In this document: in pieces, positions 10,441 through 51,920 of the stretch
Numbering within the stretch: position 1 is the first letter of the stretch
Layout of the letters: the number at the start of each line of letters is the position of its first letter
Source of the DNA: Pleurocapsa sp. CCALA 161
Lineage (GTDB): Bacteria; Cyanobacteriota; Cyanobacteriia; Cyanobacteriales; Xenococcaceae
Assembly: GCF_003003995.1 (NCBI RefSeq)
Contig: NZ_PVWF01000024.1
Location: 1 to 52,112 of the forward strand
Length of the DNA: 52,112 nucleotides
Reading direction: 5' to 3'
Program-made: the position numbers and the translations under genes
Notes under the pieces: model-generated
The model's database searches: none
Told to the model about the DNA's origin: nothing
What the model saw: only the letters and a program-made list of their open reading frames with translations

Positions 10441-10441
10441 G

Positions 10442-29395: not shown

Positions 29396-29481
29396 GTTTA
29401 ACTCGAACCTATTTAGTCTTAACTTTTTGATAGATTAAAGTAATACCTTGTGCTTGTAATTCATCTCGAAGGCGCTCGCTT
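29396..29481 (-). pseudogene. duplicated 3' tail of cysS, degraded
   Basis: This is an 86-bp copy of the cysS 3' end (intact at 29799-29885), with about 80 of 87 aligned positions identical by eye and a 1-bp gap. On the minus strand it encodes RLRDELQAQGITLI like CysS. It then runs YQKVKTK to a TAG where CysS has its penultimate Trp region, and its HIP1 site is mutated. It has no upstream coding part and is non-functional. With the intact tail it brackets the 71-residue gene at 29496-29711. Confidence 0.85.
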
Positions 29482-29495
29482 ATCCTTAAAATTAT

Positions 29496-29711
29496 TTAAC
29501 CAATTAACTTAAAAATTACCGTAATTATTACGCTTAACAAAATTAAAATAAAGCTTAACAGCCCACCAAACAACCACTTAATATACGCAGTATCAACTTT
29601 AATACCAGCAAGTTCAATTCTGATGTCATTGATCTTCTCATCTTGCTTATAAAAGCGATCGCCGATTAGCTTTTTAATTTCTTTTAGTTTTAGTTGTTGT
29701 TTAGTGGTCAT
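29496..29711 (-). CDS. 71-residue protein with coiled coil and membrane anchor
   Basis: I do not recognise this protein. The first ~40 residues are charged and helical (KQQLKLKEIKKLIGDRFYKQ), probably a short coiled coil. They are followed by a hydrophobic C-terminal helix, WLFGGLLSFILILLSVIITV (about residues 45-65), so it is probably a tail-anchored inner-membrane protein. It lies between two copies of the cysS 3' end and close to the restriction-modification gene, in an otherwise AT-rich insertion. It carries one HIP1 site at 29655. The start ATG at 29711 has no strong ribosome site. It could be an accessory gene of the insertion. Confidence 0.55.
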   Translation of the reverse strand: MTTKQQLKLKEIKKLIGDRFYKQDEKINDIRIELAGIKVDTAYIKWLFGGLLSFILILLSVIITVIFKLIG

Positions 29712-29798
29712 TAAATTAAATTATTGTTCTGTATTCAGATTTACATCTTCTCTAATTTAATAAGCTTTATTATAGTCAAGTTAATCCGTAGCAAAAAA

Positions 29799-29885
29799 GT
29801 TTAACCTCGAACCCATTTAGTCTCACCTTTTTGATCGATTAAAGTAATACCTTGTGCTTGTAATTCATCCCGAAGGCGATCGCTT
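29799..29885. repeat. intact cysS tail, partner of direct repeat
   Basis: This segment covers the cysS stop codon and the last ~28 codons. It is the intact member of the direct-repeat pair with 29396-29481. Confidence 0.8.
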
Positions 29886-31234
29886 TGGGCATAATCTTTA
29901 TTACTTCTAGCTTCATTCCGCTGCTGAACTAAAGCGTCAATTTCTGAGTCACTTAAACCTGTATTACTACTATCTTCATCAATACTGGCTGTAAAACCTA
30001 AAATAGCAGCTAATTGGGTCAAAGTTTGCCATTGTTGATTTAATTCCTGTGCATCAGCTTGAATCTTTCCTTGATGAATCAAGATATTACCTTCTTTACT
30101 CAGATTTTTGGCAATTTCAAACAGTACCGCTAATCCACCCGCAAAATTGAAGTCATCATCTACGGCGGATTTAAATCTTTTTACTAGTTCTTCGTCTAAT
30201 AAATCTATCCCAGAGAAACCTAATTGTTGACCATATTGATAACCAAAGAGCAATCCTTCCTTTAATGTTTGCCAGCTATTAGTTGCAGTAGCTAAAGCTT
30301 CTTCCGTAAAATCTACAGGTTTGCGATATTGAGCCTGCAAAATAAACAAACGTACTGCCATGGGTTCATATTTATCTAGCAATTCGCGAATCGTAATAAA
30401 GTTGCCTAAAGATTTAGACATCTTTTTCCCTTCAACAATAATCATGCCGTTGTGTAGCCAATAATTAGCTAAGGGTTTGCCCGTAACTGCTTCGGATTGG
30501 GCAATTTCATTTTCATGATGGGGAAAAGTCAAATCTCCTCCACCCACATGAAGATCGATAGTTTCTCCTAATCTTTCGCGCACCATTGCCGAACACTCGA
30601 TATGCCAGCCAGGACGACCATTTCCCCAAGGAGACTCCCAAGCTGGTTCACCCTCCTTAGCCGCCTTCCAGAGGGCAAAATCAAAGGGATATTGCTTTTT
30701 ACTAGCTTCTGGATCTTCATCAACTCTACCGCTAGCACCCGCTTGCATATCTGCTAACTTCCTACCCGACAGCTTGCCATAGTCAGGAAACTTCTGTACA
30801 GAATAATAAACGTCTCCCTCAGCAGGATAGGCAAAACCTTTTTGTTCTAATTCATAAACTAAACGTTTAATCCCATCTAGGGTATGGGTTGCACGAGGAT
30901 AGGCATCAGCTTGTCCAACTCCTAAACGTTCCATATCTTCAAAGTAGGCAGCGATATACTTCTTTGAAACCGCTTCCATCGATGTTCCTTCTTCCCTAGC
31001 GCGCTTGAGAATCTTATCGTCAATATCGGTAAAGTTCTGAATATAATTAACTTCGTAGCCACTCCACTGTAAATAGCGACGCACCACATCCCAAACTAAA
31101 CAAGTTCGAGCATGACCTAGGTGGCAATAGTCATAGACAGTTATGCCGCAGCAATACATCCGCACTTTATGCTCTTCAATAGTCTGAAACGCTGATTTGT
31201 TGCGAGTGAGGGTATTGTATACGGTTAAAGTCAT
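29801..31234 (-). CDS. cysS: cysteinyl-tRNA synthetase
   Basis: This 477-residue class I synthetase charges tRNA(Cys). The zinc-binding Cys and HIGH-type site appear as YCCGITVYDYCHLGHART (about residues 27-44). FTDIDDKIL follows. A second zinc region, GWHIECSAM, and HVGGGDLTFPHHENE are in the middle, and the KMSKS loop occurs as GKKMSKSLGN (about 266-275). The C-terminal helical domain ends with SDRLRDELQAQGI. ATG at 31234 (MTLTVYNTLTR) is chosen over an upstream in-frame extension of 19 codons. The last ~28 codons are duplicated downstream. Confidence 0.97.
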   Translation of the reverse strand: MTLTVYNTLTRNKSAFQTIEEHKVRMYCCGITVYDYCHLGHARTCLVWDVVRRYLQWSGYEVNYIQNFTDIDDKILKRAREEGTSMEAVSKKYIAAYFEDMERLGVGQADAYPRATHTLDGIKRLVYELEQKGFAYPAEGDVYYSVQKFPDYGKLSGRKLADMQAGASGRVDEDPEASKKQYPFDFALWKAAKEGEPAWESPWGNGRPGWHIECSAMVRERLGETIDLHVGGGDLTFPHHENEIAQSEAVTGKPLANYWLHNGMIIVEGKKMSKSLGNFITIRELLDKYEPMAVRLFILQAQYRKPVDFTEEALATATNSWQTLKEGLLFGYQYGQQLGFSGIDLLDEELVKRFKSAVDDDFNFAGGLAVLFEIAKNLSKEGNILIHQGKIQADAQELNQQWQTLTQLAAILGFTASIDEDSSNTGLSDSEIDALVQQRNEARSNKDYAQSDRLRDELQAQGITLIDQKGETKWVRG

Positions 31235-31410
31235 GACTAAAGGTTTATTAGATAATCTAGATAATCTTAATTGCAGACTGCCAAAGATCAAAGTTACAAG
31301 TCAAGGGCAGACTTAATACTTTAGCGTTGATTTAAGCAGCAGTTTTTTCTGTTTACCAACTAATTCTAGATTTTAGCTCTTTCACCTACGTACAATTTGT
31401 AGTGCTTGAC

Positions 31411-31416
31411 TATAAT
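31411..31416 (+). promoter_or_regulatory. candidate -10 box for ssb
   Basis: A perfect TATAAT lies 55 bp upstream of the SSB start. The -35 region is not convincing. A TTGACT overlaps just upstream but at the wrong distance, so the promoter call rests on the -10 alone. Confidence 0.35.
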
Positions 31417-31470
31417 TTGCTAAACTGAGAAATCTTAACTTAGTTCCTTAGTACTATAAATATCAAACTC

Positions 31471-31848
31471 ATGGCTCTTAATGTAGTTAATTTAGTAGGT
31501 CGTGCTGGTGCTAATCCAGAGGTAAAATATTTTGATTCTGGTTCAGTTAAATGTACATTGCCTTTGGCAGTCGATCGCCGTACTCGCAATAGCGATCAGC
31601 CAGACTGGTTTAATCTCGAAATTTGGGGTAAAACTGCCGAGATAGCAGGAAATTATGTAACCAAAGGGAAACAAATTGCGGTGCAAGGTTCTTTTAAAAT
31701 TGAAACCTGGACAGATCGCAATACAGGAGGGTTGCGATCGCGCCCCATTATCAAAGTCGATCGTTTAGAGTTACTGGGTTCAAAAAGAGATAGTGACTCT
31801 GGCTCAGTAGGTGGTTACCCTGGTGCAGTTAGTGGCTACCCAGAATAA
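31471..31848 (+). CDS. ssb: single-stranded DNA-binding protein
   Basis: A 125-residue OB-fold protein that coats single-stranded DNA. It matches the short SSB type seen in cyanobacteria, with NLVGRAGANPEVKYFDSG (about residues 7-24), the aromatic PDWFNLEIWGKTAE (about 45-58) and GKQIAVQGSFKIETW (about 67-81). The tail after residue 105 is only ~20 residues, Gly/Ser-rich, and ends SGYPE. It lacks the acidic DDIPF-type tip that recruits partners in typical bacterial SSBs, so it may be a secondary SSB paralogue. It is followed 18 bp later by a GT39 gene and is possibly co-transcribed with it. Confidence 0.9.
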   Translation: MALNVVNLVGRAGANPEVKYFDSGSVKCTLPLAVDRRTRNSDQPDWFNLEIWGKTAEIAGNYVTKGKQIAVQGSFKIETWTDRNTGGLRSRPIIKVDRLELLGSKRDSDSGSVGGYPGAVSGYPE

Positions 31849-31866
31849 AAGAAACCAGCGATAGAC

Positions 31867-33456
31867 ATGAAGGACGAGGCTGTTGAAGATTCAAGGTTAT
31901 TTAAGAGAGATAGTCTGTGGTTAATCTGCTTGCTGTTGGCTGCGGTGATGCTCTATACCTCTGGAATAGAAGATCTGCCTTTAAGAGATTGGGATGAAGG
32001 AATTGTGGCGGGAGTTGCCCGCAATATTTGGCGGGCTGAACCAGGGACTCAAACTTGGCTTTATCCCACCATTAACTACGGCGAACCTTACTGGAATAAA
32101 CCGCCCTTAATTCATTGGTTAATTGCCCTGAGTTACAGACTATTTGGTGTCAGCGAATGGAGTACGCGCCTAGTTCCTGCTCTTTTAGCTGCCTGTTCTG
32201 TTCCTTTGGTGTATTTAATTGCCAGAGAACTTTTTCCTAATCTCTCCACAGCAATTTTTAGCGCCTTAGTCTATTTAACTTTACTGCCTATAGCTCGTCA
32301 TGGTCGCTTAGCAATGCTCGATGGCGCGATCGCCTGCTGGTTTTGTTTAGGGGTTTGGTGTTTGTTGCGCGGTAGAAAACGTAATTCCTGGTTGTTGGGT
32401 ACAGGCATCGCCTTGGGCATGATCTGTCTGACTAAAGGCATCATGATGGGTGTCTTGTTGGGGGGAATTATACTGCTCTTTACAGCTTGGGACAGCCCTA
32501 AGTTGTTGAAAAATCCTTATCTATGGGCTGGTTTACTGTTAGGGGAAATTCCCGCGATCGCCTGGTATTGCCTACAATATTTTCATTACGGAACGCAATT
32601 TTTAGGCATAAGCCTAGGAGATCAAACCTTTAAACGCATTTGGTCGCCCGTCAGCACTATTTCTGGCCCTCCTTGGTACTATTTGCTAGAAATAGCCAAA
32701 TACAGCCTTCCTTGGCTCATATTTCTACCTCATGGAGTCAAACTAGCATGGGTTAATCGTCACCTTAGTTGGGGAAAACTAACTTTAGTCTGGACGGGAG
32801 TTTATCTGCTGGCGATTTCTTTGATGGAAACTAAATTGCCCTGGTATGTAATTCCTGTGTATCCAGGATTATCACTGCTGATTGGCGTTAGTTTGGGCAA
32901 AGTTTGGCACAAAAAACAGTCAGCTTACTTTTGGCAGATATTCCTAAGTTTCATTACCCTAATCTGTTGGTTGGGTAGTGTTTACTATAGTTTCATCGCG
33001 CCAGTACCACAAATCGATTTAGCTTTGATCTTATTAGTCGTAGCGATTAGCTTCACTGCTGCATCAGTGTTAATCTGGCTACGCAATCGTCACTTTATTT
33101 TAATTATTGCGGGAGGGTTTTATCTCGCTCTACTGCTGCTGTTTAATTCTAGTCATTGGCTGTGGGAATTAAATAATGATTTTCCCGTTCAACCTGTAGC
33201 GACAATGCTGCAAGCACAAACTCCTAGTCTGGAGAAAATATACACTAATCATCCTTATTTTCGTCCGTCATTAGAATTTTATAGCGATCGCCTAGTCATC
33301 CCTCAGTCCAACGAGCAACTAGAACAGCTCTGGCAAGGATCGCAACCTGCTTATTTGCTAATTAATTCAGATATATTACCCGTCCCCAAGCTAGAAGGGA
33401 AACAAGTTTTAGGAAATGTTGTATCATGGCAACTGATTACTCAGATCAACAATTAA
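31867..33456 (+). CDS. GT39/ArnT-like membrane glycosyltransferase
   Basis: A 529-residue GT-C enzyme that uses a polyprenyl-phosphate sugar as donor. The first periplasmic loop carries LRDWDEGIVAGVARNIW (about residues 38-54), in which the Asp-Glu pair is the conserved catalytic/metal site of the ArnT/PMT group. The next signature is EPYWNKPPLIHWLIALSYRL (about 74-93). About eleven hydrophobic segments follow, and a soluble C-terminal domain begins near residue 440. It opens a polysaccharide gene block. Whether it modifies a lipid, protein or glycan is not visible. Confidence 0.87.
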   Translation: MKDEAVEDSRLFKRDSLWLICLLLAAVMLYTSGIEDLPLRDWDEGIVAGVARNIWRAEPGTQTWLYPTINYGEPYWNKPPLIHWLIALSYRLFGVSEWSTRLVPALLAACSVPLVYLIARELFPNLSTAIFSALVYLTLLPIARHGRLAMLDGAIACWFCLGVWCLLRGRKRNSWLLGTGIALGMICLTKGIMMGVLLGGIILLFTAWDSPKLLKNPYLWAGLLLGEIPAIAWYCLQYFHYGTQFLGISLGDQTFKRIWSPVSTISGPPWYYLLEIAKYSLPWLIFLPHGVKLAWVNRHLSWGKLTLVWTGVYLLAISLMETKLPWYVIPVYPGLSLLIGVSLGKVWHKKQSAYFWQIFLSFITLICWLGSVYYSFIAPVPQIDLALILLVVAISFTAASVLIWLRNRHFILIIAGGFYLALLLLFNSSHWLWELNNDFPVQPVATMLQAQTPSLEKIYTNHPYFRPSLEFYSDRLVIPQSNEQLEQLWQGSQPAYLLINSDILPVPKLEGKQVLGNVVSWQLITQINN

Positions 33457-33580
33457 AAGCCTGAATTTGAGAAATCAAAATAGTAGACTTAGTGATATTC
33501 TGGATCTCAAATTAGCCACGCTTGGCTATTTATCACCCAATTATCGTCAAACAATCTTTGTAATTAGTAAATAACTAGCT

Positions 33581-34756: not shown

Positions 34757-34844
34757 ATAAGCTCTAAAATTGGCAAAGATCAGCCAATTCAAGCTTGATC
34801 GATTTATCATTGAACGGTGTGGTGTGATGTAATGAAGGAGTAAG

Positions 34845-35573: not shown

Positions 35574-35763
35574 AAGCTTAATCATTGAGCCGAGAGCCGA
35601 TCAGTTTGCCTTAATCAAGTTTCAATCATTGTTCATTGTTGAATAGCTATTTATCTAGACTATCAATATCATCTTGAAATGTATTTTATTGCCGATGTAT
35701 GATCGGAGCAATAAAATATACATAGCATCAAGCATTAATAATTAATAGGTAAAATTATATATA

Positions 35764-36834: not shown

Positions 36835-36854
36835 GTAAACGAGCTTTGCTCGTA

Positions 36855-36888
36855 GCTCTAAGCTATAAGCCATAAGCTTTAAGCTTTT
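36855..36888. repeat. heptanucleotide tandem repeat, about 5 units
   Basis: Units GCTCTAA, GCTATAA, GCCATAA, GCTTTAA, then a partial GCTTTT. A two-unit relative, ATAAGCT, occurs around 5644-5657. The array lies in the gap between gmd and fcl. Confidence 0.7.
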
Positions 36889-36966
36889 CAAGGTAAGACT
36901 CTAGTAATTTGCGCTGATTCGCGACTTAATACTTAAAATACTTACGTATCCAAATCTTAATTAGCA

Positions 36967-37914: not shown

Positions 37915-37976
37915 TTAAGCTTACTTAAAATCTGAAAGTTAACTATTTTGCCGATCGCTTTGAAAGTAAGCTGAAG

Positions 37977-38538: not shown

Positions 38539-38683
38539 TCTAAAATCGATTTCAACTTAAAAGTTACTTGGCTCTCATTTAAGAAAGCATTTAACAATTA
38601 GTATCTGAAATTATAATACTTGGTTTACTATAGATTAAGTTTTTTTCTGAAAGATTATTTTCACGTTAGAGTAGTTGAAGATA

Positions 38684-40693
38684 ATGGCTTTTAGAAATAT
38701 GATAGCAAGAGATATTCTAATTGTGGGTGGTGGTGTAGTTGGTTTAGCGATCGCCATCGAGTTAAAACGTCAGGGTGCAAAAGTCACCGTGGTTAGTCAA
38801 GATTTTACCCAGGCAGCATCTCACGCCGCAGCAGGGATGTTAGCACCGTTAGCAGAACAGCTTTCCTCTTCACCATTGCGAGATTTATGTCTACGCTCTC
38901 GCTGGCTGTATCCCGAATGGACGCAAAAACTGGAAGAATTGACGGGGATAGAAACTGGATATTTACCCTGTGGGATTCTTGCCCCTACCTATAGTCAGCC
39001 CGAAGTAATTGCTGAAGACAAGGGTACATTTTGGTTAGATCGAGCAGCAATTAAGCAATATCAGCCAGGACTAAGCGATCGCGTGGCTGGCGGTTGGTGG
39101 TATCCCGAAGATGGACAGGTTGATAATCGCTGTTTAATGCGATCGCTGTTACAGGCTGCTCAAACTTTGGGGATAGAGCTAAAAGAAGGAGTTAGCGTTA
39201 AGGCTTGGCAACAAAAGCAGGGTCGAATTGACGGCGCATTAACTAATATTGGGCAGCTAACAGCCCAGCAATATGTTTTGGCTGCTGGCTCATGGTCGAG
39301 TCAGTTAACACCTCTAACTGTGCGTCCAGTCAAAGGGCAAATGCTTTCCCTGAGAATGCCCCAAAAGCTACATCAGCCTTATCCTCTACAGCGAGTTTTA
39401 TATGGCGAGGGAGTTTATCTGGTTCCGCGACAAGACGGTAGATTAATTGTAGGCGCAACAGTAGAAGAAGTAGACTGGACTCCCTTTAATACACCGCAAG
39501 GTATTCAAAGTTTATTGGCAAAAACGACAGAACTATATCCTGCCACAGCAGATTGGCAAATTGAAGAATTATGGTGGGGTTTTCGCCCTGGAACAGCTGA
39601 TGAACTGCCTATTCTAGGCCGTAGTGCTTGTGAAAACTTATTCCTGGCTACGGGACATTATCGCAATGGAATTTTACTCGCACCCATTACTGCATCGCTG
39701 ATGGCAGATTTGATTTTAGAACAGAAGTCTGATCCTTTACTAGCTGAATTTAGCTATCAACGTTTTTATCAACCTGCAAATATGACTCTAAGCAACCCGC
39801 AATTACTACAGATTAAATCTACTTCTCAAACTCCCTTAACTGCTGCGACGACCTCTTTGGCTGGCGATTACCCGAAGGGTACGCTTTGCGATCACATTGA
39901 AGATGATCGCCCGTTAACCATCGCTGGACGTACCTTTAACTCCCGTCTGATGACAGGGACAGGGAAGTATCCTAGTATGCAGGCTATGCAAGCCAGCGTA
40001 GCTGCCAGCGGATGTGAGATTATCACTGTGGCAGTACGCAGAGTCCAAACCAAAGCACCAGGACATGAAGGATTAGCTGAGGCGATTGACTGGAGCAAAA
40101 TCTGGATGTTACCCAATACCGCAGGCTGTAAAACCGCCGAGGAAGCAGTCAGAGTGGCGCGTTTGGGTCGAGAGATGGCAAAACTGCTGGGACAGGAAGA
40201 TAACAACTTTATTAAATTGGAGGTAATTCCTGATGCCAAATATCTGTTACCAGATCCAATTGGCACACTACAGGCAGCTGAACAGCTAGTTAAAGAAGGT
40301 TTTGCGGTGTTACCCTATATCAATGCCGATCCTTTGCTTGCCAAGCGCTTAGAAGAGGCAGGATGTGCTACAGTAATGCCCCTAGGTTCACCTATTGGTT
40401 CAGGGCAAGGAATCAATAATGCTGCTAATATTGCCATTATCATCGAAGAAGCGAACGTTCCTGTTGTAGTAGATGCGGGAATTGGTACTCCAAGTGAAGC
40501 AGCTTTGGCGATGGAGATGGGGGCAGATGCCCTGCTAGTTAATAGCGCGATCGCTTTGGCACAAAATCCTGTAGCGATGGGACAAGCGATGGGTTTAGCT
40601 GCGGTTGCAGGAAGACTGGCTTATCTATCGGGGAGAATCCCCGTGAAGCAATATGCCACAGCTAGTTCTCCTTTGACTGGTACAATTAGCTGA
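38684..40693 (+). CDS. thiO/thiG: bifunctional glycine oxidase ThiO / thiazole synthase ThiG
   Basis: The fusion makes the thiazole part of thiamine. The N-terminal FAD-dependent oxidase (about residues 8-365) has [17 protein letters not shown] and a DAAO-like active site, and oxidises glycine to iminoglycine. The C-terminal ThiG (about 405-655) carries RLMTGTGKY and the Schiff-base Lys in [16 protein letters not shown]. It ends with [30 protein letters not shown]. The order and length (669 residues from this start) match the cyanobacterial fusion, which channels the labile imine. ATGs at 38684 and 38699 and a TTG at 38675 are all in frame, so the exact start is uncertain. The linker contains a palindromic repeat (39869-39893). 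Confidence 0.95.
39869..39893. repeat. palindromic interspersed repeat fragment within the ThiO-ThiG linker
   Basis: TACCCGAAGGGTACGCTTTGCGATC lies in frame at the domain junction and encodes YPKGTLCDH. Read in reverse it closely matches the repeat at 17987-18015 (GATCGCGAAGCGTATACCC plus the CGGGTA hairpin). The linker of the fusion therefore appears to have been built from, or extended by, an interspersed repeat. Confidence 0.6.
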
Positions 40694-40916: not shown

Positions 40917-40956
40917 GGTCATAATTAGTCTAGTAATTTAGGATTCGCATCATCTT

Positions 40957-42114: not shown

Positions 42115-42219
42115 GCTTGTTGTTATGTGTTGAGAGTATGACTTAGTTATCTTGGTGATCTGAATCATTGCTAGAAAGGGAACAATAAACATAGATCTAT
42201 TAACGACTGCTCACTAATT

Positions 42220-44361: not shown

Positions 44362-44583
44362 TTACTTGTGCATGATTATCAACTTTTGAATGCGTTCTCC
44401 TATTTGCCATATCCCTTGAATAATCTGCTCTGAATTGATTCCTAATGTCACTTGCAACAAGATTAAGAGCGCTGCAATTATCAAAACTGTCTTGATAGTT
44501 GATTTGAGAACATTTAGTAACCAAGTAAATAACAGCAACAAAATGATTGCTGCTGCGATTGGAATAATTATTTCTAAAGACAT
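44362..44583 (-). CDS. 73-residue two-helix membrane protein
   Basis: A small protein with two helices, about residues 4-24 and 30-50, separated by a short basic turn (LKSTIKT). It ends in a mixed charged and hydrophobic amphipathic tail. It follows the pattern of small cyanobacterial membrane proteins of unknown function. ATG at 44583. It is minus strand, well separated from its neighbours. Confidence 0.6.
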   Translation of the reverse strand: MSLEIIIPIAAAIILLLLFTWLLNVLKSTIKTVLIIAALLILLQVTLGINSEQIIQGIWQIGERIQKLIIMHK

Positions 44584-44740
44584 AGGCTTAGGAACATTGC
44601 CGATCTTAAATATGAGACTGATAAATTATAGCTGTTGGTTATTTCGTTCTATCAGCTGAAGCAAAGATTAGGATGATCGGTAATCAGTTTCCACAGAAGT
44701 ACAGGGTTACAGAGCGATTCCTGTAAACAGATAAATATAG

Positions 44741-44848
44741 TTGCCAATAAAAAAGAGAGGGTGTGATTTCCCTCTCCTGTTGGTTGAACTTTTCTGGTTT
44801 CGACGAGCCGTTACTTTTCAGCCTTTGCCGTAGCATTTGTTCTCGTTT
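44741..44848. repeat. 108-bp direct repeat, copy A (derived from the 86-residue gene)
   Basis: This segment matches 46495-46602 in the same orientation at about 98 of 108 positions. It contains a complete terminator hairpin and the codons for REQMLRQRLKSNGSSKPEKF of the 86-residue protein in the minus-strand frame. The remainder of that gene is missing here. It lies just downstream of the CHAD gene. Confidence 0.9.
44748..44776 (-). terminator. intrinsic terminator of the CHAD operon
   Basis: On the minus strand GAGAGGG and CCCTCTC form a 7-bp stem with an 8-base loop, directly followed by a T6 run. It is 95 bp beyond the CHAD stop codon, in a good position to end that transcript, and is part of the duplicated segment. 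Confidence 0.75.
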
Positions 44849-44871
44849 GAAAACTGCTACAATTGCTGATG

Positions 44872-45831
44872 TTAAGCTTGCTGTATTATCTGCCTGAATT
44901 CTGTGCGAGTTTTATCTGCAAGGAATTGTTTCTGTGAGATTTGCCATTCTAGCCATTTTTGGGATTGAGTTTTTAAGAATAAACCAGCTAGTTCTGGTAA
45001 TTTTTCACCGATTGGCGATCGCAACACTTTTTCTAGTACCTCAATCAAAACATGAATATCTTGAATCTGTCCCAAAATCTCTTGAACTCCTTCTGTTTTC
45101 TTCAGGTAAAGATGATAAGACTCTCCGTAGAATTGAGAAAACAACTCTAAACTGTAGCGGGTTTTCTTGGCTGATTTACGTAAATCATGTAACAAACTGC
45201 CTTCTAATTTTAACAGCCGATCTATTGCATCCATATTCAAAATTGTCGAAAATTCTATCTCACCCTCTTGAAAATTGACTCCTACTAACCAGCCAGGATG
45301 AAGTAAAAATTGGCAAACCTGGGGTAAAAGCAAGTCTGGCAGTACAAAGTCAAGGGAATAATCACCAAATACTGTATACTTTGGTTCTTCAAGCCAAGCA
45401 TTTAATTCCTGCTTAAGGTTTAAATACAGTTTGCCGTTGAGAGTTTTACGCACCTGTTTTAATTCATGTTGGCGTTTTTTACCGAGGGATTCGATCGCTT
45501 TAGCTAATTTCTTCTGCTCTTTAGTTGGCAATAGTGGTAAATAATTATCATTTAAGACAGCTAACAAAACATCTAAATCCCTCAGCTTACCCAGAGAATG
45601 TCCGATTTTAGCTATATTTTTCACCGTCACGTTCTTTGGTAAATCCATCGCCAGAGTAAAGCCAGCGATCGCACTTCGTAAGCGTCTCATACCTACCCGC
45701 ATCTGATGCAGGTCTTCTGGGTCTTTATCTTTTAGTACTCCAGCTTCGTGCTTAAATATTCGGCGACTGTGTTTGGCGATCGCTCCATCTGCCAGTTCTT
45801 TTAAAGTAACTACATTATTGCTATCGTTCAT
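44872..45831 (-). CDS. CHAD domain protein
   Basis: A 319-residue all-helical protein with the CHAD domain, which binds polyphosphate. Diagnostic conserved His and basic patches are EDLHQMRVGMRRLRSAI (about residues 39-55) and LLHDLRKSAKKTRYSLELF (about 213-231), where His, Arg and Lys line the anionic-ligand surface. No CYTH phosphatase domain is attached, so it is a polyphosphate-granule-binding type rather than a triphosphatase. Translation likely couples to the upstream short gene (3-bp gap). Its transcript probably ends at the duplicated terminator downstream. Confidence 0.93.
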   Translation of the reverse strand: MNDSNNVVTLKELADGAIAKHSRRIFKHEAGVLKDKDPEDLHQMRVGMRRLRSAIAGFTLAMDLPKNVTVKNIAKIGHSLGKLRDLDVLLAVLNDNYLPLLPTKEQKKLAKAIESLGKKRQHELKQVRKTLNGKLYLNLKQELNAWLEEPKYTVFGDYSLDFVLPDLLLPQVCQFLLHPGWLVGVNFQEGEIEFSTILNMDAIDRLLKLEGSLLHDLRKSAKKTRYSLELFSQFYGESYHLYLKKTEGVQEILGQIQDIHVLIEVLEKVLRSPIGEKLPELAGLFLKTQSQKWLEWQISQKQFLADKTRTEFRQIIQQA

Positions 45832-45834
45832 CGC

Positions 45835-46182
45835 TTATCGCCGCTCATTAATCGGGGCTAAAGTTGCTATTTGTTTAGATTGCTCTAGCTGTCGCCAAAG
45901 CTGCTTAATTTGCCTATAAGTTTCTTCAGCAGTGATTTTGCCATTGGTTTCTAAATTGCAAAGATAAAATGCCTGTTGGGCAAACTCTTGTAAATTGGCA
46001 TTAAAAGCTAAGTTATTAGGAGTAAACTCGCCATGGTATCTGCCTAACGGGTTCAAAAAACCTTTTTTAAAATTTTGTGATTCTTGTGGTTTAGTCAATT
46101 TTTTATTTTCTAGATACTGATCTTTATTTATCTTTAAATATAAGTAAGTATTGTAAAGGAGACAAGTTACAAAAATTGCCAA
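45835..46182 (-). CDS. DUF7219-like cyanobacterial protein
   Basis: A protein of up to 115 residues. The conserved part begins FLNPLGRYHGEFTPNNLAFNANLQEFAQQAFYL and continues ITAEETYRQIKQLWRQLEQSK (about residues 42-102). It is predicted all-helical and occurs widely in cyanobacteria under a DUF number. The first ~40 residues have no ATG; TTG at 46182 or a later TTG (about codon 30) is the start, so the N-terminus is uncertain. It precedes the CHAD gene by 3 bp, which suggests a functional pair. Confidence 0.65.
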   Translation of the reverse strand: MAIFVTCLLYNTYLYLKINKDQYLENKKLTKPQESQNFKKGFLNPLGRYHGEFTPNNLAFNANLQEFAQQAFYLCNLETNGKITAEETYRQIKQLWRQLEQSKQIATLAPINERR

Positions 46183-46434
46183 CCTTAAGATAGATTTAAA
46201 GCTTGAATTTTAAAACTACGAACAACTACAAACAATATTATTATCATTTTAATAACTTGAATAATTAAATCCTAAAAACCAATAAGTATATTGTCATTTA
46301 TTGCTAAGTTTTTATAAAGCGCAACAATTTTTTGTCGCAAATCGGGGGGGGGTAAAAGACTTCATTAAAAATGCAATTCGCTGTAACTATTTTGTAAAAA
46401 TATTGTATTTATTTTACTTGCACACCTCTATAGG
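46183..46434. other. intergenic AT-rich region with G9 run
   Basis: No gene is visible between the DUF7219-like gene and the 86-residue gene. A run of nine G (46344-46352) stands out in an otherwise very AT-rich stretch. Confidence 0.4.
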
Positions 46435-46695
46435 TTAGTAATACTTTTGTGCAGAAGCATAGACTTGGAAAAAGATTTCTGAAAACAAACAATATTGCCA
46501 ATAAAAAAGAGAGGGTATAATTTCCCTCTCTTGTGGCTTGAACTTTTCTGGTTTCGATGAGCCGTTACTTTTTAACTTCTGCCGTAGCATTTGTTCTCGT
46601 TTTCGGAGTTGTCTTGCTCTAGCAGTACCACCTTTTCCTTTATCATTACGTCCTTGTTTGCGGGGAGATTCCCACCGTTTAAGTCTTTGAACCAT
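46435..46695 (-). CDS. 86-residue basic protein, possibly with read-through tail
   Basis: I do not recognise a family. The first ~55 residues are strongly basic (RLKRWESPRKQGRNDKGKGG, ARARQLRKREQMLRQKLK), as in nucleic-acid-binding or ribosome-associated small proteins. From about residue 55 the frame runs through an intrinsic terminator hairpin and into a hydrophobic, unrelated tail (SLFYWQYCLFSEIFFQ). The authentic C-terminus may therefore be near residue 50-55, or the gene may have lost its stop. The 3' half with the terminator is duplicated downstream of CHAD. Start: ATG at 46695. Confidence 0.5.
   Translation of the reverse strand: MVQRLKRWESPRKQGRNDKGKGGTARARQLRKREQMLRQKLKSNGSSKPEKFKPQEREIIPSLFYWQYCLFSEIFFQVYASAQKYY
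46495..46602. repeat. 108-bp direct repeat, copy B (parent copy inside the 86-residue gene)
   Basis: This is the parent of copy A at 44741-44848. It comprises the second half of the basic-protein frame and its terminator. The two copies bracket the DUF7219-like and CHAD genes. Confidence 0.9.
46503..46530 (-). terminator. intrinsic terminator inside the 86-residue frame
   Basis: GAGAGGG/CCCTCTC form a 7-bp stem followed on the minus strand by a T6 run. It lies about 70 bp before the stop codon of the frame, so a terminating transcript would lack the stop. Confidence 0.65.
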
Positions 46696-46743
46696 ATTTT
46701 AGTAACTTATAATGTCATACTTATTGTAGCATTTAATTTGTTT

Positions 46744-48069
46744 TTAGGAAGAACTGAGAGAGGGCAAGAAACTGACTATCTGAGGAAAAATAATAATCAG
46801 AGTCAAAACCAGAAGCTGTAGCAAAATAAAAGGTATTGCTCCTCGATAAATATCTTCAGTTTTCAGTTCTGGTGGTGCGACTCCTTGCAGATAGAAGAGA
46901 GCAAACCCAAAAGGAGGGGTGAGAAACGAGGTTTGTAGATTAGCCCCCAGCACTACTCCATACCACAATAGATCTAATCCTAGCTGTTGAGCTACTGGGG
47001 CAAAGATAGGAATAACAATAAAAGCAATCTCAAAGAAATCAATAAAAAAGCCGAGTAAGAAAATTACCAGCATATTAACAAACAAGAAACCAACTTTTCC
47101 TCCAGGAAGGTTAACCAGTAAGTGTTGCATAAAGCGATCGCCTCCCAAACCTCGGAAGACCAAACTAAAAGCAGTAGAACCAATGAGGATAAACATCACC
47201 ATTGTGGTAATTCGCAAAGTGGCATCACAAACTTCTCGTAGTGCTGCCCAAGTTAATTGACGATTAACGGCTGCCAAGATAATTGTTCCCAGCGATCCCA
47301 AAGCTCCCGCCTCTGTTGGTGTAGCAATACCCATGAAAATACTGCCCAAGATGATCACAATTAACACCAAAGGGGGTAACATCACCGTTATTATGCGCAC
47401 CAAGAGCTTTTTTCCACTAATCCTGACGTTAGTAGGTAAGGCAGGAGCGACTTCAGGTTTGAGATAAGCTACGATTAAGACGTGGAGAGCAAAAGCCCCC
47501 GCCATCATCAATCCTGGAATTAATGAACCAACGAATAAATCACCGACGGGAACACCTAGCTGATCGCCTAAAACAACCAGCACCACACTAGGAGGAATAA
47601 TTTGCCCTAAGGTCCCCGACGCGACAATTACCCCCGCAGCTAATTCTTTGTTGTAGCCATAGCGCAACATAATTGGTAGAGAAATTAAGCCCATCGCCAC
47701 CACAGTTGCAGCTACCACCCCAGTAGAAGCAGCGAGTAATGCCCCCACTAGCACCACGGCTAAAGCCAAACCACCTCTCACTCTGCCAAAGAGCATTCCG
47801 ATTGTCTCTAGTAGCTTTTCGGCAATACCTGTTTTCTCCAGCATTGAACCTAGAAAAATAAAGTAGGGAATCGCCAGCAGCGTATAGTTAGACATGATGC
47901 CAAAAATACGGCTGGGCATGGCATTGAAAAAGCTAAAGCTAAATTCCCCTACTGCCGAACCAATTAAAGCAAAGATAATGGCTACTCCACCAAGAGAAAA
48001 GGCGACAGGGAAGCCAAAGGAGAGAAGGAATAATGCCCCAGCAAACATGGCAATACCTAACCATTCCAT
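46744..48069 (-). CDS. TRAP transporter large permease (DctM type)
   Basis: A 441-residue, 12-helix permease that drives organic-acid uptake with a sodium gradient. Family blocks are seen: PVAFSLGGVAIIFA near residue 20, NYTLLAIPYFIFLGSML (about 61-77), GGLALAVVLVGALLAASTGVVAATV, GTLGQIIPPSVVLVVLGD (about 152-169) and the late IDFFEIAFIVIPIFAPVAQQLGLD. Cyanobacterial relatives include GtrB of the glutamate TRAP system. The start overlaps the stop of the small subunit gene (TAATG), so the two are coupled. No periplasmic binding-protein gene is nearby. Confidence 0.93.
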   Translation of the reverse strand: MEWLGIAMFAGALFLLSFGFPVAFSLGGVAIIFALIGSAVGEFSFSFFNAMPSRIFGIMSNYTLLAIPYFIFLGSMLEKTGIAEKLLETIGMLFGRVRGGLALAVVLVGALLAASTGVVAATVVAMGLISLPIMLRYGYNKELAAGVIVASGTLGQIIPPSVVLVVLGDQLGVPVGDLFVGSLIPGLMMAGAFALHVLIVAYLKPEVAPALPTNVRISGKKLLVRIITVMLPPLVLIVIILGSIFMGIATPTEAGALGSLGTIILAAVNRQLTWAALREVCDATLRITTMVMFILIGSTAFSLVFRGLGGDRFMQHLLVNLPGGKVGFLFVNMLVIFLLGFFIDFFEIAFIVIPIFAPVAQQLGLDLLWYGVVLGANLQTSFLTPPFGFALFYLQGVAPPELKTEDIYRGAIPFILLQLLVLTLIIIFPQIVSFLPSLSSS

Positions 48070-48596
48070 TAGTTCTCCTCCTTACTACTATAGATATTCC
48101 AGTTTTTAATCGCCTCAGAAATTCCCTGTAAGATTAATAAAATACAAGCCAAAATAATCGCCGATTTAATTGGATAACGAGGTAAACCACCTGGATCGGG
48201 AGACATTTCGCGTATTTTCCAAGAATTAATCACTGTTCCCCAGGAATAGTAAATTAATAGACTGCTGAAGGGAATTAACAATATGAGATTGCCCCAAACG
48301 TTCGCTAGTGCTTTGCGTCGACGACTCCACCCTCGATAAAATATATCTACTCGAACATGTTCGTTGTATTTCAGGGCATAGGCAGCACCAAATAAAAATA
48401 TCACATCAAATAAATACCACTGCACTTCGATCAAAGAATTAGAAGTGAGATTTGTTCCCACCATCTTCCCTAAATAACGTCCCAAGACATTCCATGCGCC
48501 GATGGCAACCATCAACAGCACGAGCCAGTAGCTAATTCGACCAACCAATTCATTGAGCAGATCGATCGCCCTAACTATTTTTAATAGCTTGCTCAA
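48069..48596 (-). CDS. TRAP transporter small permease (DctQ type)
   Basis: A 175-residue, four-helix subunit that joins the large permease. The core is RISYWLVLLMVAIGAWNVLGRYLG (about residues 20-43). NSLIEVQWYLFDVIFLFGAAYALKYNEHVRVDIFY (about 53-87) follows, with the typical E-V-Q-W and H-V-R-V-D motif. The TTG start at 48596 is supported by GAGG 8 bp upstream. Its stop overlaps the large-subunit ATG. The nearest upstream gene on the same strand is glcE, 118 bp away. Confidence 0.92.
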   Translation of the reverse strand: MSKLLKIVRAIDLLNELVGRISYWLVLLMVAIGAWNVLGRYLGKMVGTNLTSNSLIEVQWYLFDVIFLFGAAYALKYNEHVRVDIFYRGWSRRRKALANVWGNLILLIPFSSLLIYYSWGTVINSWKIREMSPDPGGLPRYPIKSAIILACILLILQGISEAIKNWNIYSSKEEN

Positions 48597-48686
48597 TCTT
48601 TTTCCTCAACTATGACTTCAACTTAGTAGCTAATGCTAAATCTTTTAGAGCTTGAAGTCTAGCTGTGTTCAATCAATCGTATTAAT

Positions 48687-48712
48687 TTAAATATTTAAAT
48701 ATTTAAATATTT
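48687..48712. repeat. octamer AT repeat (TTTAAATA)3
   Basis: Three copies of a self-complementary AT-only octamer lie just past the glcE stop (48715, minus strand). They can form a small cruciform or help a weak terminator. Confidence 0.6.
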
Positions 48713-48714
48713 CG

Positions 48715-50028
48715 TTAGACGATAAAACGGTCAGGATTAAGGATATTTTGTGGATCGAACTGATGTTTAATCGCTTCCATGGTTTTGATCGCGTTACCTG
48801 AATAACCCCAAATATCTATCTGTTGCTTAACTGCCTGGGGTGCATCCAGAATAGTTAAAAATCCTTGATGTTGCTGACAGTGCGCTCTTATTTGCTCTAT
48901 TAGCTCATAATTTGTATTGAGCTGTAGTCGACCCAGACCGCTATTAGCATGAACTCTAGCTAGTATATTATTATGGCGATTTCCCATCGAGAACTCTTCG
49001 GGATCGCCAATTTGCTTGAGCAAACCGACAGCCGCCACAGGGGGGATGCCAAATTTGCAGGTAACAGCCTCTTCAAATTGAGGAATACTGATAATCTTGC
49101 CACATTCTTGCCAGAGATTTTCTTCTGGCTCATCTTGATAAATACTGGTGGCTAAATCTAACTCTTGAGCGATCGCCTTAACCTGCGATCTTTGTTGTTC
49201 AATGCTTTCAGGAATTGTTTGCCAGCGGATCATTAAGCCTAGATCTGAGCCTAAACCTAGCTGCTTAATCACCGTAGCAGATAACAAATCCATTGCTGTG
49301 GGAGTCAAGCCAGAATTACGAATAGTTTGGGTGGCTTGAGCAATCTGTTCGGCTTTTCCCGTTATTAGCAGTGTTTGAGAATTAGCTATCAAAGGATAGA
49401 GACGAAAGGTAAGTTGAGTCATTACCCCCAAAGTGCCATAAGCTCCTGTAAACAACTTCATCAAGTCATAACCCGCAACGTTTTTGACTACTCTACCTCC
49501 AGCTTTGGCGACTTCTCCATCAGCACGCACAAAAGACAAGCCTAATAATAAGTCTCTTACGCCACCATAACGCTGTCGCCAACTTCCTGTATCTGCTGTG
49601 GCGACAATTCCTCCTAGAGTGGCATGAGCATAAGGGGAGTCTATCGGCAAAAACTGATTATGCGATCGCAATTTTGACTGTAAATCAGCCAACTTCATTC
49701 CAGCTTCTACCGTTACCGTCAGATCTCCTGCGGCGTGTTCAATCAGGCGATCGCATTTTTGAGTACTAATAACTAGCTGAATATCCTGGCTGATCTTGCC
49801 CCAGTTTATTTTGCTGGCGTTACCACAAACAAGCATACGCCAATGCTGCTGTGCTGCCTGCCTAACAATTGCAGTCAATGCCTCGATAGTTTGGGGAAAT
49901 AATAGATAAATCGGCGCGTTTTTGCCTATTACTTGATAAATTTTGTGCCAACCAACATCTGCCTCATCTAGTTCAATGAGTTCAGTATTAGTAATTGATT
50001 TTAATTGAGAGGCGATCGCAGTTGTCAT
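48715..50028 (-). CDS. glcE: glycolate oxidase subunit GlcE-like FAD-binding protein
   Basis: A 437-residue FAD-dependent subunit that works with GlcD/GlcF in glycolate dehydrogenase. The PCMH-type FAD fold shows PQTIEALTAIVRQAA (about residues 44-58) and RMLVCGNASK. The flavin-binding block is LPIDSPYAHATLGGIVATADTGSWRQRYGGVRDLLLG (about 128-164), with GGRVVKNVAGYDLMKLFTGAYGTLG (about 178-202). The C-terminus DPQNILNPDRF matches the family. Photorespiratory glycolate oxidation in cyanobacteria is the likely role. GlcD and GlcF are not in the window. Confidence 0.88.
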   Translation of the reverse strand: MTTAIASQLKSITNTELIELDEADVGWHKIYQVIGKNAPIYLLFPQTIEALTAIVRQAAQQHWRMLVCGNASKINWGKISQDIQLVISTQKCDRLIEHAAGDLTVTVEAGMKLADLQSKLRSHNQFLPIDSPYAHATLGGIVATADTGSWRQRYGGVRDLLLGLSFVRADGEVAKAGGRVVKNVAGYDLMKLFTGAYGTLGVMTQLTFRLYPLIANSQTLLITGKAEQIAQATQTIRNSGLTPTAMDLLSATVIKQLGLGSDLGLMIRWQTIPESIEQQRSQVKAIAQELDLATSIYQDEPEENLWQECGKIISIPQFEEAVTCKFGIPPVAAVGLLKQIGDPEEFSMGNRHNNILARVHANSGLGRLQLNTNYELIEQIRAHCQQHQGFLTILDAPQAVKQQIDIWGYSGNAIKTMEAIKHQFDPQNILNPDRFIV

Positions 50029-50161
50029 ATTTTAGCGGGGAATTTCTATCATCACTTTATCAATTAAGTAGGTAGGCATAATTATTTATCATCATTGCAG
50101 TAACTAGTAGCTATTAGCCATGTTTTACTTTATAGCAGCTAAGTTATTTTGATACTTGTCT

Positions 50162-50298
50162 TCAAACAAACCTCATACTTAAATCTAACCAAGGCGATCG
50201 TATTATCGGTGCGCTACTAGAAATATAATCAACTCCAGTTTCAGCCACTGGTAAGAATAGTTTTTACAGTAATATCGCCCGATACTTCAATTCTGACT
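50162..50298 (-). pseudogene. duplicated 3' tail of nadC, degraded
   Basis: About 137 bp match the 3' end of nadC (51066-51201) in the same orientation, with roughly 120 identical positions by eye, small indels and a mutated stop codon. The frame is disrupted, so it is a remnant. It lies in the 337-bp gap between glcE and the GNAT gene and, with the intact nadC tail, brackets that acetyltransferase. Confidence 0.85.
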
Positions 50299-50365
50299 AA
50301 CGTTTGATACTATACAACTCACTGGAAGTTGACCAACTTCCAGAGCAAAATATTTTGTGAAAACC

Positions 50366-51004
50366 ATGACTGATTTCAATACTGCACTGCTTAAGTCATC
50401 CGAAATAGATCAAGCTAGCAAAATTCTTGTCAGAGCATTTAGTGAAGATCCTATGTTTCGCTATCTTGGCATCAAAGTAAAACCAGGACAGTTAAAAGTA
50501 GATACAGATATTCTCCAATGGTTTTGTAATTTCAACTTACGAAATTGCCAGCTATATAATCATATTTATACAACTCCAGGTGATTTGAAGGGTGTAGCAG
50601 TTTGGGTACCGCCAGGAAAATCTGAAATGAACACACGAAAAGCTTTATCGATGTTGTTCATCCTATTTTACAAGTGTGGTTGGCACAGAACAAAAAGATT
50701 TTTATCATTATTTTCCACCCTAAATAAACGTCATCAGGAAGATATGACTGAGCCTCATTGGATACTCAGTTTAATAGGTGTTGAACCAGCTTATCAAGGA
50801 GAAGGAATTGGCAGTTTACTTTTACAACCTATTTTTAAAAAGGCAGATCGACAAGGTTTATCATGTTACCTTTCTACTTTTAGCGAACAAGCTGTTGGTT
50901 TTTACCAAAAACACGGGTTTATTGTTTTATGGCAAGGTGGATTATCAGATGACAGTCCTCGCATTTGGACAATGAAGCGAAAACCCCAAACAGTAGACAT
51001 CTAA
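50366..51004 (+). CDS. GNAT family N-acetyltransferase
   Basis: A 212-residue acetyltransferase (215 if GTG at 50357 is used). The acetyl-CoA loop is VEPAYQGEGIGSLLLQPIF (about residues 135-153). A typical C-terminal Tyr-containing strand, AVGFYQKHGF (about 173-182), follows. GVAVWVPPGKSEMNTRKALSM near residue 75 fits a small-molecule-modifying subgroup. Overall it resembles single-domain acetyltransferases that act on antibiotics, amines or polyamines, but the substrate is unknown. It is on the opposite strand from nadC and sits between the two copies of the nadC tail, which suggests it arrived as an insertion. Confidence 0.87.
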   Translation: MTDFNTALLKSSEIDQASKILVRAFSEDPMFRYLGIKVKPGQLKVDTDILQWFCNFNLRNCQLYNHIYTTPGDLKGVAVWVPPGKSEMNTRKALSMLFILFYKCGWHRTKRFLSLFSTLNKRHQEDMTEPHWILSLIGVEPAYQGEGIGSLLLQPIFKKADRQGLSCYLSTFSEQAVGFYQKHGFIVLWQGGLSDDSPRIWTMKRKPQTVDI

Positions 51005-51065
51005 CCCGAATCATAGTGAACTAGATTGCCAAATATGATTGATCAAATGTTCATAACTCATTTCC

Positions 51066-51920
51066 TTAAACAAACCTCATACTTAAATCTAACCAAGGCG
51101 ATCGCGTTATTGGTGCGCTACTAGAAATATAATCAACTCCAGTTTCCGCTACCGCACGAATAGTTTTCAAGGTAATATTGCCCGACCCTTCAATTCTGAC
51201 TTGAGGATTGGTCTGCCGAATTATTTTTACTGCTTCAGTCATGATTTCCAGGGGCATGTTATCCAACATAATAATATCTGCACCGTACGCCAATGCCTGG
51301 CGCACTTCTTCTAGATTGCTGGTCTCCACTTCTATATTTAAGGGATAGGGAATATTGTTTCTGAGCAGGGCGATCGCTTTTTCTATTCCCCCTGCTGCTT
51401 TTATGTGATTATCCTTAATCATCACCGCATCATCTAATCCCATGCGATGATTTACTGCACCACCTACTCTTGTGGCATATTTTTCTAATACTCTTAAACC
51501 TGGCGTAGTTTTTCGAGTATCCACTAATTTAGTTGGCAAGTCACTAATCTCTGTTACATAACTACGAGTTGCGGTAGCAATTCCACTCAAACGCATTGCC
51601 AAATTAAGTGCAACTCTCTCTCCTGTTAGCAATGCTTCCCTACTTCCCTTTATGCTGGCAATCTTCGTTCCCGACTTACAATAGTCCCCCTCGCTTACAT
51701 CACAGGTGAACTGAGCTTGCTTATCTAATAATTCAAAAACTCTCGCTGCGATCGGTAATCCTGCAATTACCCCGTCTTCTTTTACAACCCACACTGCTTG
51801 ATTAATTTCAATGTTGCCATTGAACAATCCTTGCGTAGTAAGATCTCCTCTGCCAAGATCCTCTAACAACCAATTTTCTAGCAGGCGATCGACAATTATT
51901 AAGGAAGGTAAACTAACCAT
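51066..51920 (-). CDS. nadC: nicotinate-nucleotide pyrophosphorylase (carboxylating)
   Basis: This 284-residue quinolinate phosphoribosyltransferase makes nicotinate mononucleotide in NAD synthesis. It has the N-terminal domain ENWLLEDLGRGDLTTQGLF (about residues 16-34) and GVIAGLPIAARVFELL. The core includes LLTGERVALNLAMRLSGIATAT (about 96-117), VDTRKTTPGLRVLEKYA and GGAVNHRMGLDDAVMIKDNH (about 156-175). RIEGSGNIT and VDYISSSAPITRSP are at the C-terminus. ATG at 51920 is preferred over an upstream TTG. Its last ~45 codons are duplicated at 50162-50298. The divergent promoter at the right edge faces the other way. Confidence 0.96.
   Translation of the reverse strand: MVSLPSLIIVDRLLENWLLEDLGRGDLTTQGLFNGNIEINQAVWVVKEDGVIAGLPIAARVFELLDKQAQFTCDVSEGDYCKSGTKIASIKGSREALLTGERVALNLAMRLSGIATATRSYVTEISDLPTKLVDTRKTTPGLRVLEKYATRVGGAVNHRMGLDDAVMIKDNHIKAAGGIEKAIALLRNNIPYPLNIEVETSNLEEVRQALAYGADIIMLDNMPLEIMTEAVKIIRQTNPQVRIEGSGNITLKTIRAVAETGVDYISSSAPITRSPWLDLSMRFV

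Follow-up and report, generated by a model that had tools for sequence, protein, structure and literature searches.

The window analysed here, a stretch of 52,112 nucleotides, contains three minus-strand genes, namely cysS, a gene of 86 residues and nadC, whose tails each have a direct copy 0.3-1.6 kb downstream, also on the minus strand, with unrelated genes in between. With the distal copy given first, the cysS pair (29396-29481 and 29799-29885) covers 87 alignment columns at 92% identity. The pair at the 86-residue gene (44741-44848 and 46495-46602) covers 108 nt at 91%, and BLAST extends it to 44680 and 46438, i.e., to 169 columns at 80%. The nadC pair (50159-50298 and 51063-51201) covers 140 columns at 88%. 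Within a 27-kb stretch, the E-values of these pairs are 6e-25, 1e-36 and 3e-40, respectively; the lowest value in 100 first-order Markov resamples was 5e-4. All three pairs exceed chance, and realignment reproduced the pairing and coordinates given in a first-pass annotation. A fourth tail reported there as copied is likewise a repeat beyond chance, though a weaker one: the end of the methyltransferase gene and the following intergenic bases (26241-26287, minus strand) match 27021-27067 (minus strand) over 47 nt at 81% (E 7e-6). Its geometry differs from that of the other three, because the second copy sits upstream of the methyltransferase gene. Eight of its nucleotides are the motif GCGATCGC, which is HIP1 (PMC4390886). 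HIP1 was rejected as the origin of the repeats, since 8 bp cannot yield pairs of 85-170 bp.

The cysS gene encodes a cysteine--tRNA ligase (29801-31291, minus strand; NCBIfam TIGR00435). Between its two tails lies a gene for a 71-residue protein (29496-29711, minus strand), to which family library scans assigned no family. The same gene lies behind cysS in the relative G002, and blastn finds a 57-bp match in G003. The distal cysS copy carries a change from TGG to TAG, as does the copy in G002, where 1.4 kb more separates tail and copy. A clean insertion at cysS is not supported, since the window and G002 have the tail copy, the restriction gene and the 71-residue gene in common. Nor is the restriction fusion the cargo of this pair: the gene concerned, encoding a C5 cytosine methylase with a long C-terminal extension (27136-29328, plus strand; PF00145, TIGR00675, PADLOC MTase_II), falls outside it. 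No restriction domain was recognised in that extension by the libraries used. The C-terminus encoded by cysS in the window, LIDQKGETKWVRG, is unlike the LID[KQ]PG[GR]xTIWNR- of the 11 same-genus relatives read; G009 gave no cysS match. In G002, the working tail is of the usual type and the distal copy is of the odd type. No donor for the odd tail was found among 291 genomes of the order, 98 of which matched at E 1e-12, the best matches outside the genus being no better than the in-genus ones that head the list.

The 86-residue gene (46435-46695, minus strand) belongs to no family recognised in our scans, and is matched in 23 of the 30 genomes searched, its own included. Its true 3' end is uncertain, because the G002 version stops after 65 residues. 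The cargo between its tails consists of two minus-strand genes, one for a DUF7219 protein (45835-46182; PF23856) and one for a CHAD-domain protein (44872-45831; PF05235), the latter with a counterpart of 91% amino-acid identity at G003:C93. Beyond the 108 nt noted above, identity between the tails falls to about 62% over the next 61 columns, a drop that we read as resembling that between coding and intergenic DNA of orthologues. In the cargo-free relatives G002, G012, G011 and G010 the gene has one tail, which adjoins a 73-residue gene; in the window, that gene lies at 44362-44583 (minus strand).

The nadC gene (51066-51947, minus strand; PF01729/PF02749) is separated from its distal tail copy, which carries a 1-bp insertion, by a GNAT acetyltransferase gene on the plus strand (50357-51004; PF13508/PF00583). 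In G003, nadC has a single tail with no GNAT gene behind it, and the downstream flank of the distal copy in the window resembles the G003 flank. The GNAT gene was found in 17 of 120 genomes (own included), with a best match of 61%, in another genus. The donor form, i.e., nadC followed by GNAT elsewhere, was not seen in these 120 genomes, some of them fragmented. A plasmid origin of the GNAT gene was rejected, the one match being distant and in a Deinococcus record.

In some genomes, conserved genes are followed directly by unrelated genes that relatives do not have there. One flank of such an insert is the complete parent gene; the other is a partial copy of that gene's end, which adjoins the native neighbour where this is checkable. 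The single-tail relatives at nadC and at the 86-residue gene bear out the earlier proposal that DNA entered beside gene 3' ends while the gene was kept whole.

Single-tail sites could alternatively be secondary deletions between the repeats. Such deletions would account for the relatives if a gene end and its neighbours had been duplicated in tandem long ago and trimmed later: recombination between direct repeats restores exactly a single-tail site, and the extra 1.4 kb at cysS in G002 is absent from the genome of the window (G000). However, of 12 same-genus relatives, 9 (G003 and eight others) have no GNAT match at E 1e-20, G002 and G012 carry their CHAD genes elsewhere, one tail is seen in several relatives both at nadC and at the 86-residue gene, and the cargo at recF, another parent gene, is not the same in G000 and G001. 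We therefore regard an old tandem duplication as improbable.

The search for spaced direct repeats that had been suggested, run on part of the genome, gives more cases, and the pattern recurs with different cargo. Our sample was 2.28 Mb from three same-genus genomes: 996 kb of the 5.37 Mb of G000 (62 pieces), 851 kb of G002 (44 pieces) and 436 kb of G006 (22 pieces). Pieces were picked by contig number or in even steps, with others added on account of the finding (the window, L060-L064, L072 and L073), and genes were taken as the longest open frames, not as curated calls. The sample contains 66 direct and 4 inverted clusters of spaced repeats, with repeats of 50 to 534 bp and gaps of 258 to 7737 bp under the limits set for the search. 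In 19 of the 66, a gene tail has its copy downstream (3 in the window, 3 elsewhere in G000, 13 in G002 and none in the 436 kb of G006), the G000 and G002 counts being enriched because some pieces were fetched for the finding. Without the window, G000 retains 3 such clusters in 944 kb, and without L062, G002 retains 12. By comparison, E. coli K-12 (500 kb) gave 1 direct and 1 inverted cluster when divided into pieces of 20, 20 and 10 kb, and 2 and 1 in uncut 50-kb pieces. Tail copies are not equally common without cargo, as no tail/intergenic pair has a gap below 250 bp. Parents include the housekeeping genes cysS, nadC, recF, ileS and uppS. The first-pass annotation had placed all three parents on the minus strand; this holds in the window, but elsewhere in G000 the parents at L093, L121 and L129 lie on the plus strand of their contigs. 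In the clusters scanned, cargo is mostly ordinary genes, toxin-antitoxin genes and restriction genes; at L197, a homologue of the restriction gene of the window is bracketed by ileS tails. Triple tails occur at L180 in G002 and at L197.

A 75-bp repeat of G006 and the dense repeat stretches L108 and L111 of G002 account for some of the 66 clusters, as would be expected if a dispersed repeat family or paralogues had been mistaken for a pattern. As an account of the whole, such noise is the least probable reading, given the low counts in the inverted and E. coli controls and the occurrence of the nadC and 86-residue tails at only two genomic places each. A single dispersed repeat family is rejected for these two tails on the same ground. 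The protein search with cysS saw only the gene itself, and was too insensitive to reveal even the known cysS copy.

A site-specific element, in which an integrase or transposase, perhaps acting in trans, targets and duplicates gene ends, would leave a whole gene and a partial copy, which is the arrangement at integrase targets. In one G002 cluster, L187 (12257-12316 and 16071-16130), the proteins of the insert include a member of the phage integrase family and a replication-initiation protein, so that at least one of the 66 clusters is an integrative element, and an RRXRR protein lies within the recF insert. The scan of insert proteins covered part of the clusters and found no integrase or transposase family in the other inserts. 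Among the proteins encoded between the window copies, the family scan likewise found no integrase or transposase, in line with the earlier statement that no recombinase is visible there, and ARAGORN found no tRNA gene in the window. An integrase is unnecessary, and the idea that the window loci derive from an integrase element or an insertion sequence was rejected. The wide ranges of repeat length and gap also argue against a site-specific element, which we hold to be very unlikely.

The differences between copies bear on two remaining readings. One is plain long target duplication, in which the copy that is not needed decays and allele differences come from later exchange with relatives. The geometry and the variable repeat length fit this reading, restriction and toxin-antitoxin type genes recur as cargo, and restriction genes are said to insert with long, variable target duplications (PMC3031569). 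At L093, the ABC-transporter gene and youngest case in G000, both copies share a derived base relative to G002, G003 and G008, and two further changes occur in the copy alone. Some pairs look simply decayed, e.g., cysS in the window (1 synonymous and 5 nonsynonymous differences) and ileS (2 and 10). Over 17 curated copy pairs, however, there are 77 synonymous and 72 nonsynonymous differences, an excess of synonymous changes against 25% (P 2.7e-12) and even against 38% (P 4.7e-4), the latter being our own unsimulated estimate for duplication followed by decay of one copy. An earlier set had 18 pairs (78 and 70); the 17-pair set omits L117, L180a, L187 and L184, whose reading frames are doubtful, and adds L214, L197 and L149. 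On account of the synonymous excess, the view that a duplicate simply decayed was rejected as a complete explanation. It had been argued that copies differing by 7-14% record old events; this does not follow. Many copies are not simple decayed duplicates.

The two copies also differ in their affinities to relatives. At the 86-residue gene, the distal copy is nearer to G003 (5 differences in 100) than the intact copy is (9), against the expectation from plain duplication. Across five segments (the 86-residue gene, nadC, recF a, recF b and the ABC gene), the distal copy agrees with G003 and the intact copy with G002 at 9 sites (4, 1, 3, 1 and 0, respectively), and the reverse holds at 1 site (one-sided P 0.011). 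The distal copies of the 86-residue gene and recF, and weakly that of nadC, share sites with a relative. Over all sites where copies differ, G003 agrees with the intact copy at 21, with the distal copy at 19 and with neither at 4. The distance between copies is similar to their distance to G003 (nadC, 14/134 versus 15/134; recF a, 14/104 versus 13/104), and a four-way comparison of L129 and L189 gave a mosaic that fits neither simple tree. Lastly, in 8 of 15 tail entries the end of the repeat falls between -1 and +11 nt relative to the stop codon, a clustering that a blind break would not predict. On balance, plain duplication is a serious contender, with perhaps one chance in three.

We favour the other reading, homology-assisted one-sided capture, over plain long target duplication. 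We give about an even chance to the view that the brackets are scars left when foreign DNA was captured by recombination, with no transposon or integrase of its own. Incoming DNA from a relative would bring the end of a conserved gene together with other genes. Homologous pairing of the RecA type would align the incoming gene end with the resident gene, and the incoming end would become the working 3' end. The other end of the piece would be joined, at a site without real homology, within the resident tail, which might be that of a sister chromosome. The resident tail would then be pushed downstream as a relic, and the two tails would start as two alleles, already different. An excess of gene ends may be seen because selection keeps those events that leave the gene whole, and later exchange between the copies and with DNA of relatives may produce mosaics. 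We count in favour of capture the single-tail sites, the predominance of direct over inverted clusters, the synonymous excess, the sites with G003 alleles, the distances between copies at nadC and recF a, the drop in identity beyond the 108 nt at the 86-residue gene and the repeat ends at stop codons, as well as the finding of a ComEC-type Competence family gene (PF03772), the failure to find Ku (PF02735) and the proposal made for V. cholerae that is described below. We count against it the fit of L093 to plain duplication, the near-even agreement of G003 with intact and distal copies over all differing sites, the decayed cysS and ileS pairs, the cysS arrangement in G002, which is opposite to the simple model, the lack of a donor form for GNAT or the odd cysS tail, and the few clusters outside the window in G000 and none in G006.

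How small accessory genes that lack transposases enter bacterial chromosomes is an old question, and many gains leave no trace of the mechanism. The scars described here show which gene was the landing site and on which side the DNA entered; should the allele reading be right, they identify the donor lineage too. They suggest a route for restriction and toxin-antitoxin genes between unrelated sites, and caution against equating repeat divergence with age. More tentatively, donor and resident alleles of one housekeeping gene may be kept side by side as a widespread record of capture in this cyanobacterial lineage, at several per megabase and up to about 15 per megabase in the G002 sample; donor lineage, order and rate of captures could then be read from single genomes. 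On the same reading, and with similar reserve, gene 3' ends might be where addiction modules and small accessory genes chiefly land, with no mobile-element enzyme involved.

Several known systems resemble this architecture. Integrative islands at tRNA genes or gene 3' ends restore the target end and leave a partial copy at the far end; here, the window inserts hold no integrase, the repeats are longer and the inserts are very small. Insertion sequences of the IS1549 type make long duplications, and differ in that the window inserts encode no transposase. In the model for pneumococcal merodiploids, as given in PMC3784515, a duplication arises when a single incoming fragment links two copies of the chromosome, as in the capture considered here, but a chromosomal repeat must already be present and the duplications reach almost half the genome.

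Capture and long target duplication are both known mechanisms; we found no published account of their recurrence at housekeeping genes in cyanobacteria. Insertion of restriction-modification genes with long target duplication (Nobusato et al. 2000, as described in PMC3031569) shares with our loci the long, variable direct repeats, the relative with one copy and no insert, found here at nadC and the 86-residue gene, and the restriction cargo, found inside the repeat pair at ileS in L197; at cysS, the restriction gene lies outside the pair. Insertion of this kind differs in that most cargo here is not restriction genes and the copies often behave as different alleles. Homology-facilitated illegitimate recombination, a process of transformable bacteria, has been proposed for a like architecture in the type VI secretion effector-immunity arrays of V. 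cholerae, which, as presented in PMC5361080, likewise show a conserved anchor, new downstream DNA, a displaced old 3' part and serial arrays, comparable to the triple tails found here. Non-homologous DNA beside a stretch of homology is seen in the single-tail sites and patchy cargo; as for donor alleles, the 86-residue gene and recF, and weakly nadC, speak for them, and L093 and the G002 cysS speak against. The displaced parts in V. cholerae belong to toxin effector-immunity modules, whereas here they come from housekeeping genes with unrelated cargo.

A repeat search and BLAST bore out the three pairs of gene tail and distal direct copy that the first-pass annotation had described in the window, at cysS (29799-29885 and 29396-29481), at an 86-residue gene without known family (46495-46602 and 44741-44848) and at nadC (51066-51201 and 50162-50298). 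The respective inserts encode a 71-residue protein without family, DUF7219 and CHAD proteins, and a GNAT protein. The three pairs were not equaled in 100 Markov resamples of a 27-kb stretch, and the window contains no tRNA genes. A fourth pair, at a methyltransferase gene (26241-26287 and 27021-27067), is also real, although it is short and has its second copy upstream of that gene. Separately, the repeat listing shows a tandem array of a 7-bp, CAATGAG-like unit at 10411-10648, and positions 38675-40693 encode a 672-residue protein in which NCBIfam identifies a ThiO domain and whose second half we take to be ThiG-like.

The search for spaced direct repeats at gene ends covered 996 kb of this genome (G000) and 851 kb and 436 kb of the same-genus relatives G002 and G006. 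Pairs were retained if they had at least 50 bp, 70% identity and 250-8000 bp spacing, and if one copy or both lay outside reading frames of at least 80 codons. This yielded 66 direct versus 4 inverted clusters (P 1.7e-15), counts that are enriched, as the G000 and G002 samples include pieces fetched because of the finding. A gene tail with its copy downstream accounts for 19 of the 66 (6 in G000, 3 of these in the window; 13 in G002; 0 in G006), versus 7 with a gene head copied upstream (P 0.03). The remainder are tails copied upstream (9, including 4 of a 75-bp repeat of G006), heads copied downstream (3), internal pairs (6) and intergenic pairs (22). Tail copies did not prove equally common without cargo, the outcome by which the annotation would have been contradicted: no pair of a tail with an intergenic copy had a gap below 250 bp. 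As a control, E. coli K-12 (500 kb, cut into pieces of 10-20 kb) gave 1 direct cluster (prophage DLP12) and 1 inverted, and uncut 50-kb pieces gave 2 and 1. Another 180 kb of same-genus loci gave 4 direct clusters and 1 inverted, with no tail copied downstream among them. Direct repeats are dense along two contigs of G002 (C15 and C12, pieces L111 and L108), which are perhaps plasmid or mobile DNA.

Other targets, with their cargo, include a nitrate-type ABC ATPase gene (L093; a 188-residue protein), a 99-residue gene ahead of a speE-like gene in G000 and G002 (a response regulator), uppS (a DUF3500 protein), squalene-hopene cyclase (a DUF3465 protein), the precorrin-8X methylmutase gene, with a PIN/antitoxin pair behind it, and a 453-residue gene, with an RHH/PemK pair at its head. 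In G000 the insert at recF is 6 kb long and has about five genes (acyl-CoA dehydrogenase, PIG-L, RRXRR, methyltransferase, glycosyltransferase), while in the relative G001 recF carries a PIN-domain toxin-type pair. Further cargo includes P450, acetamidase, GST, GFA and Uma2 genes. A 465-residue gene of G002 (L180) has three tail copies (17127-17214, 18072-18142 and 18594-18681), between which lie a GST gene and a 66-residue frame. Elsewhere in G002, direct repeats at L187 12257-16130 probably delimit a small integrative element, which carries a phage integrase and a Rep-type protein.

In L197, from a Xenococcaceae metagenome genome, the window's restriction gene has a homologue (79% identical) placed between the ileS end and an ileS tail copy (81%), and a third, more decayed copy follows. 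The three ileS ends are at 5856-5988, 8224-8357 and 9058-9147, and the intervals between them hold the restriction gene and a 146-residue protein. The cargo is the same as in the window, the target different and the geometry the same, and the triple ileS end is like an array of serial captures. No bracketing tail pair is present at the other five homologue loci examined (L198-L200, L202, L204).

The window corresponds to contig C88 of a genome of 5.37 Mb, and the empty sites anticipated in relatives were found for two of its loci. The relative G003 has one tail and no GNAT gene behind nadC, and its downstream flank is similar to that of the window's distal nadC copy; of 12 same-genus relatives, 9 show no GNAT match at E 1e-20 and the remaining three match at just 43-65%. 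Likewise, a single tail of the 86-residue gene adjoins a 73-residue gene in G002, G012, G011 and G010. The CHAD genes of G002 and G012 are located at other places, and a second CHAD gene of G000 (L064 9748-10843, two overlapping frames) lies directly behind pheS. Two contig ends of G003 suggest that DUF7219-CHAD adjoins its 86-residue gene, with an ATP synthase gamma gene on the other side; the frame at this break is presumably transposase-like, and G003 yielded no second tail. A G run occupies window 46344-46360, and the G003 contig end (end of L057) has the transposase-like frame at the corresponding place, an apparent insertion in the same spacer. At cysS, G002 has the 71-residue gene, distal copy and restriction gene in common with the window, with 1.4 kb extra between; over 136 bp, the G002 distal copy aligns with the intact tail of the window. 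The G003 locus has, instead of the restriction gene, other DNA with a DDE transposase.

If the distal copies were decayed duplicates, about 25% of differences would be synonymous with decay alone, and, by our estimate, about 38% with one decaying and one constrained copy. Across 17 curated pairs there are 77 synonymous versus 72 nonsynonymous differences, i.e., 52% (P 2.7e-12 against 25%; 4.7e-4 against 38%). Individual loci are synonymous-rich (86-residue gene 6/4, nadC 8/6, G000 recF 12/6, 99-residue gene 16/5) or nonsynonymous-rich (window cysS 1/5, ileS 2/10, G001 recF 8/10, L189 7/11). Among the sites that distinguish the intact from the distal copy, G003 agrees with the intact copy at 21, with the distal copy at 19 and with neither at 4; with G002 as a second reference, 9 sites join distal to G003 and intact to G002, versus 1 the reverse. 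The distal copy of the 86-residue gene is closer to G003 (5 versus 9 differences in 100), while for nadC the intact copy is (15 versus 20 in 134). The cysS C-terminus read in 11 same-genus relatives is unlike the window's; G000 and G002 both have distal copies of the window's form, with a common stop. The repeat terminates at -1 to +11 nt relative to the stop codon in 8 of 15 tail entries, of which two represent a single gene.

We prefer one-sided homologous recombination at a gene end: the end would recombine on one side only, and the far side of the incoming piece would be joined illegitimately. This reading accounts for the absent enzyme, the gene-end bias, the allele-like copies, the serial copies (L180, L197) and the different cargo at recF. 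A ComEC-type gene is present in the genome and Ku gave no match there, so that uptake with homologous recombination fits better than end joining. A serious rival is plain duplication of a long target, followed by exchange. It fits better at the ABC gene (L093), whose intact and distal copies have a derived base in common and whose distal copy has two private changes, counter to the allele-like pattern.

Keyword searching of the openly accessible literature turned up no publication that describes gene-end scars in cyanobacteria. One-sided events of the preferred kind can be set beside homology-facilitated illegitimate recombination, proposed for displaced effector parts in V. cholerae (PMC5361080) and for variable segments (PMC2884548); duplications made by transformation have been shown (PMC3784515), as have mosaics following it (PMC13344027), and restriction genes inserting with long variable target duplications are cited in PMC3031569.
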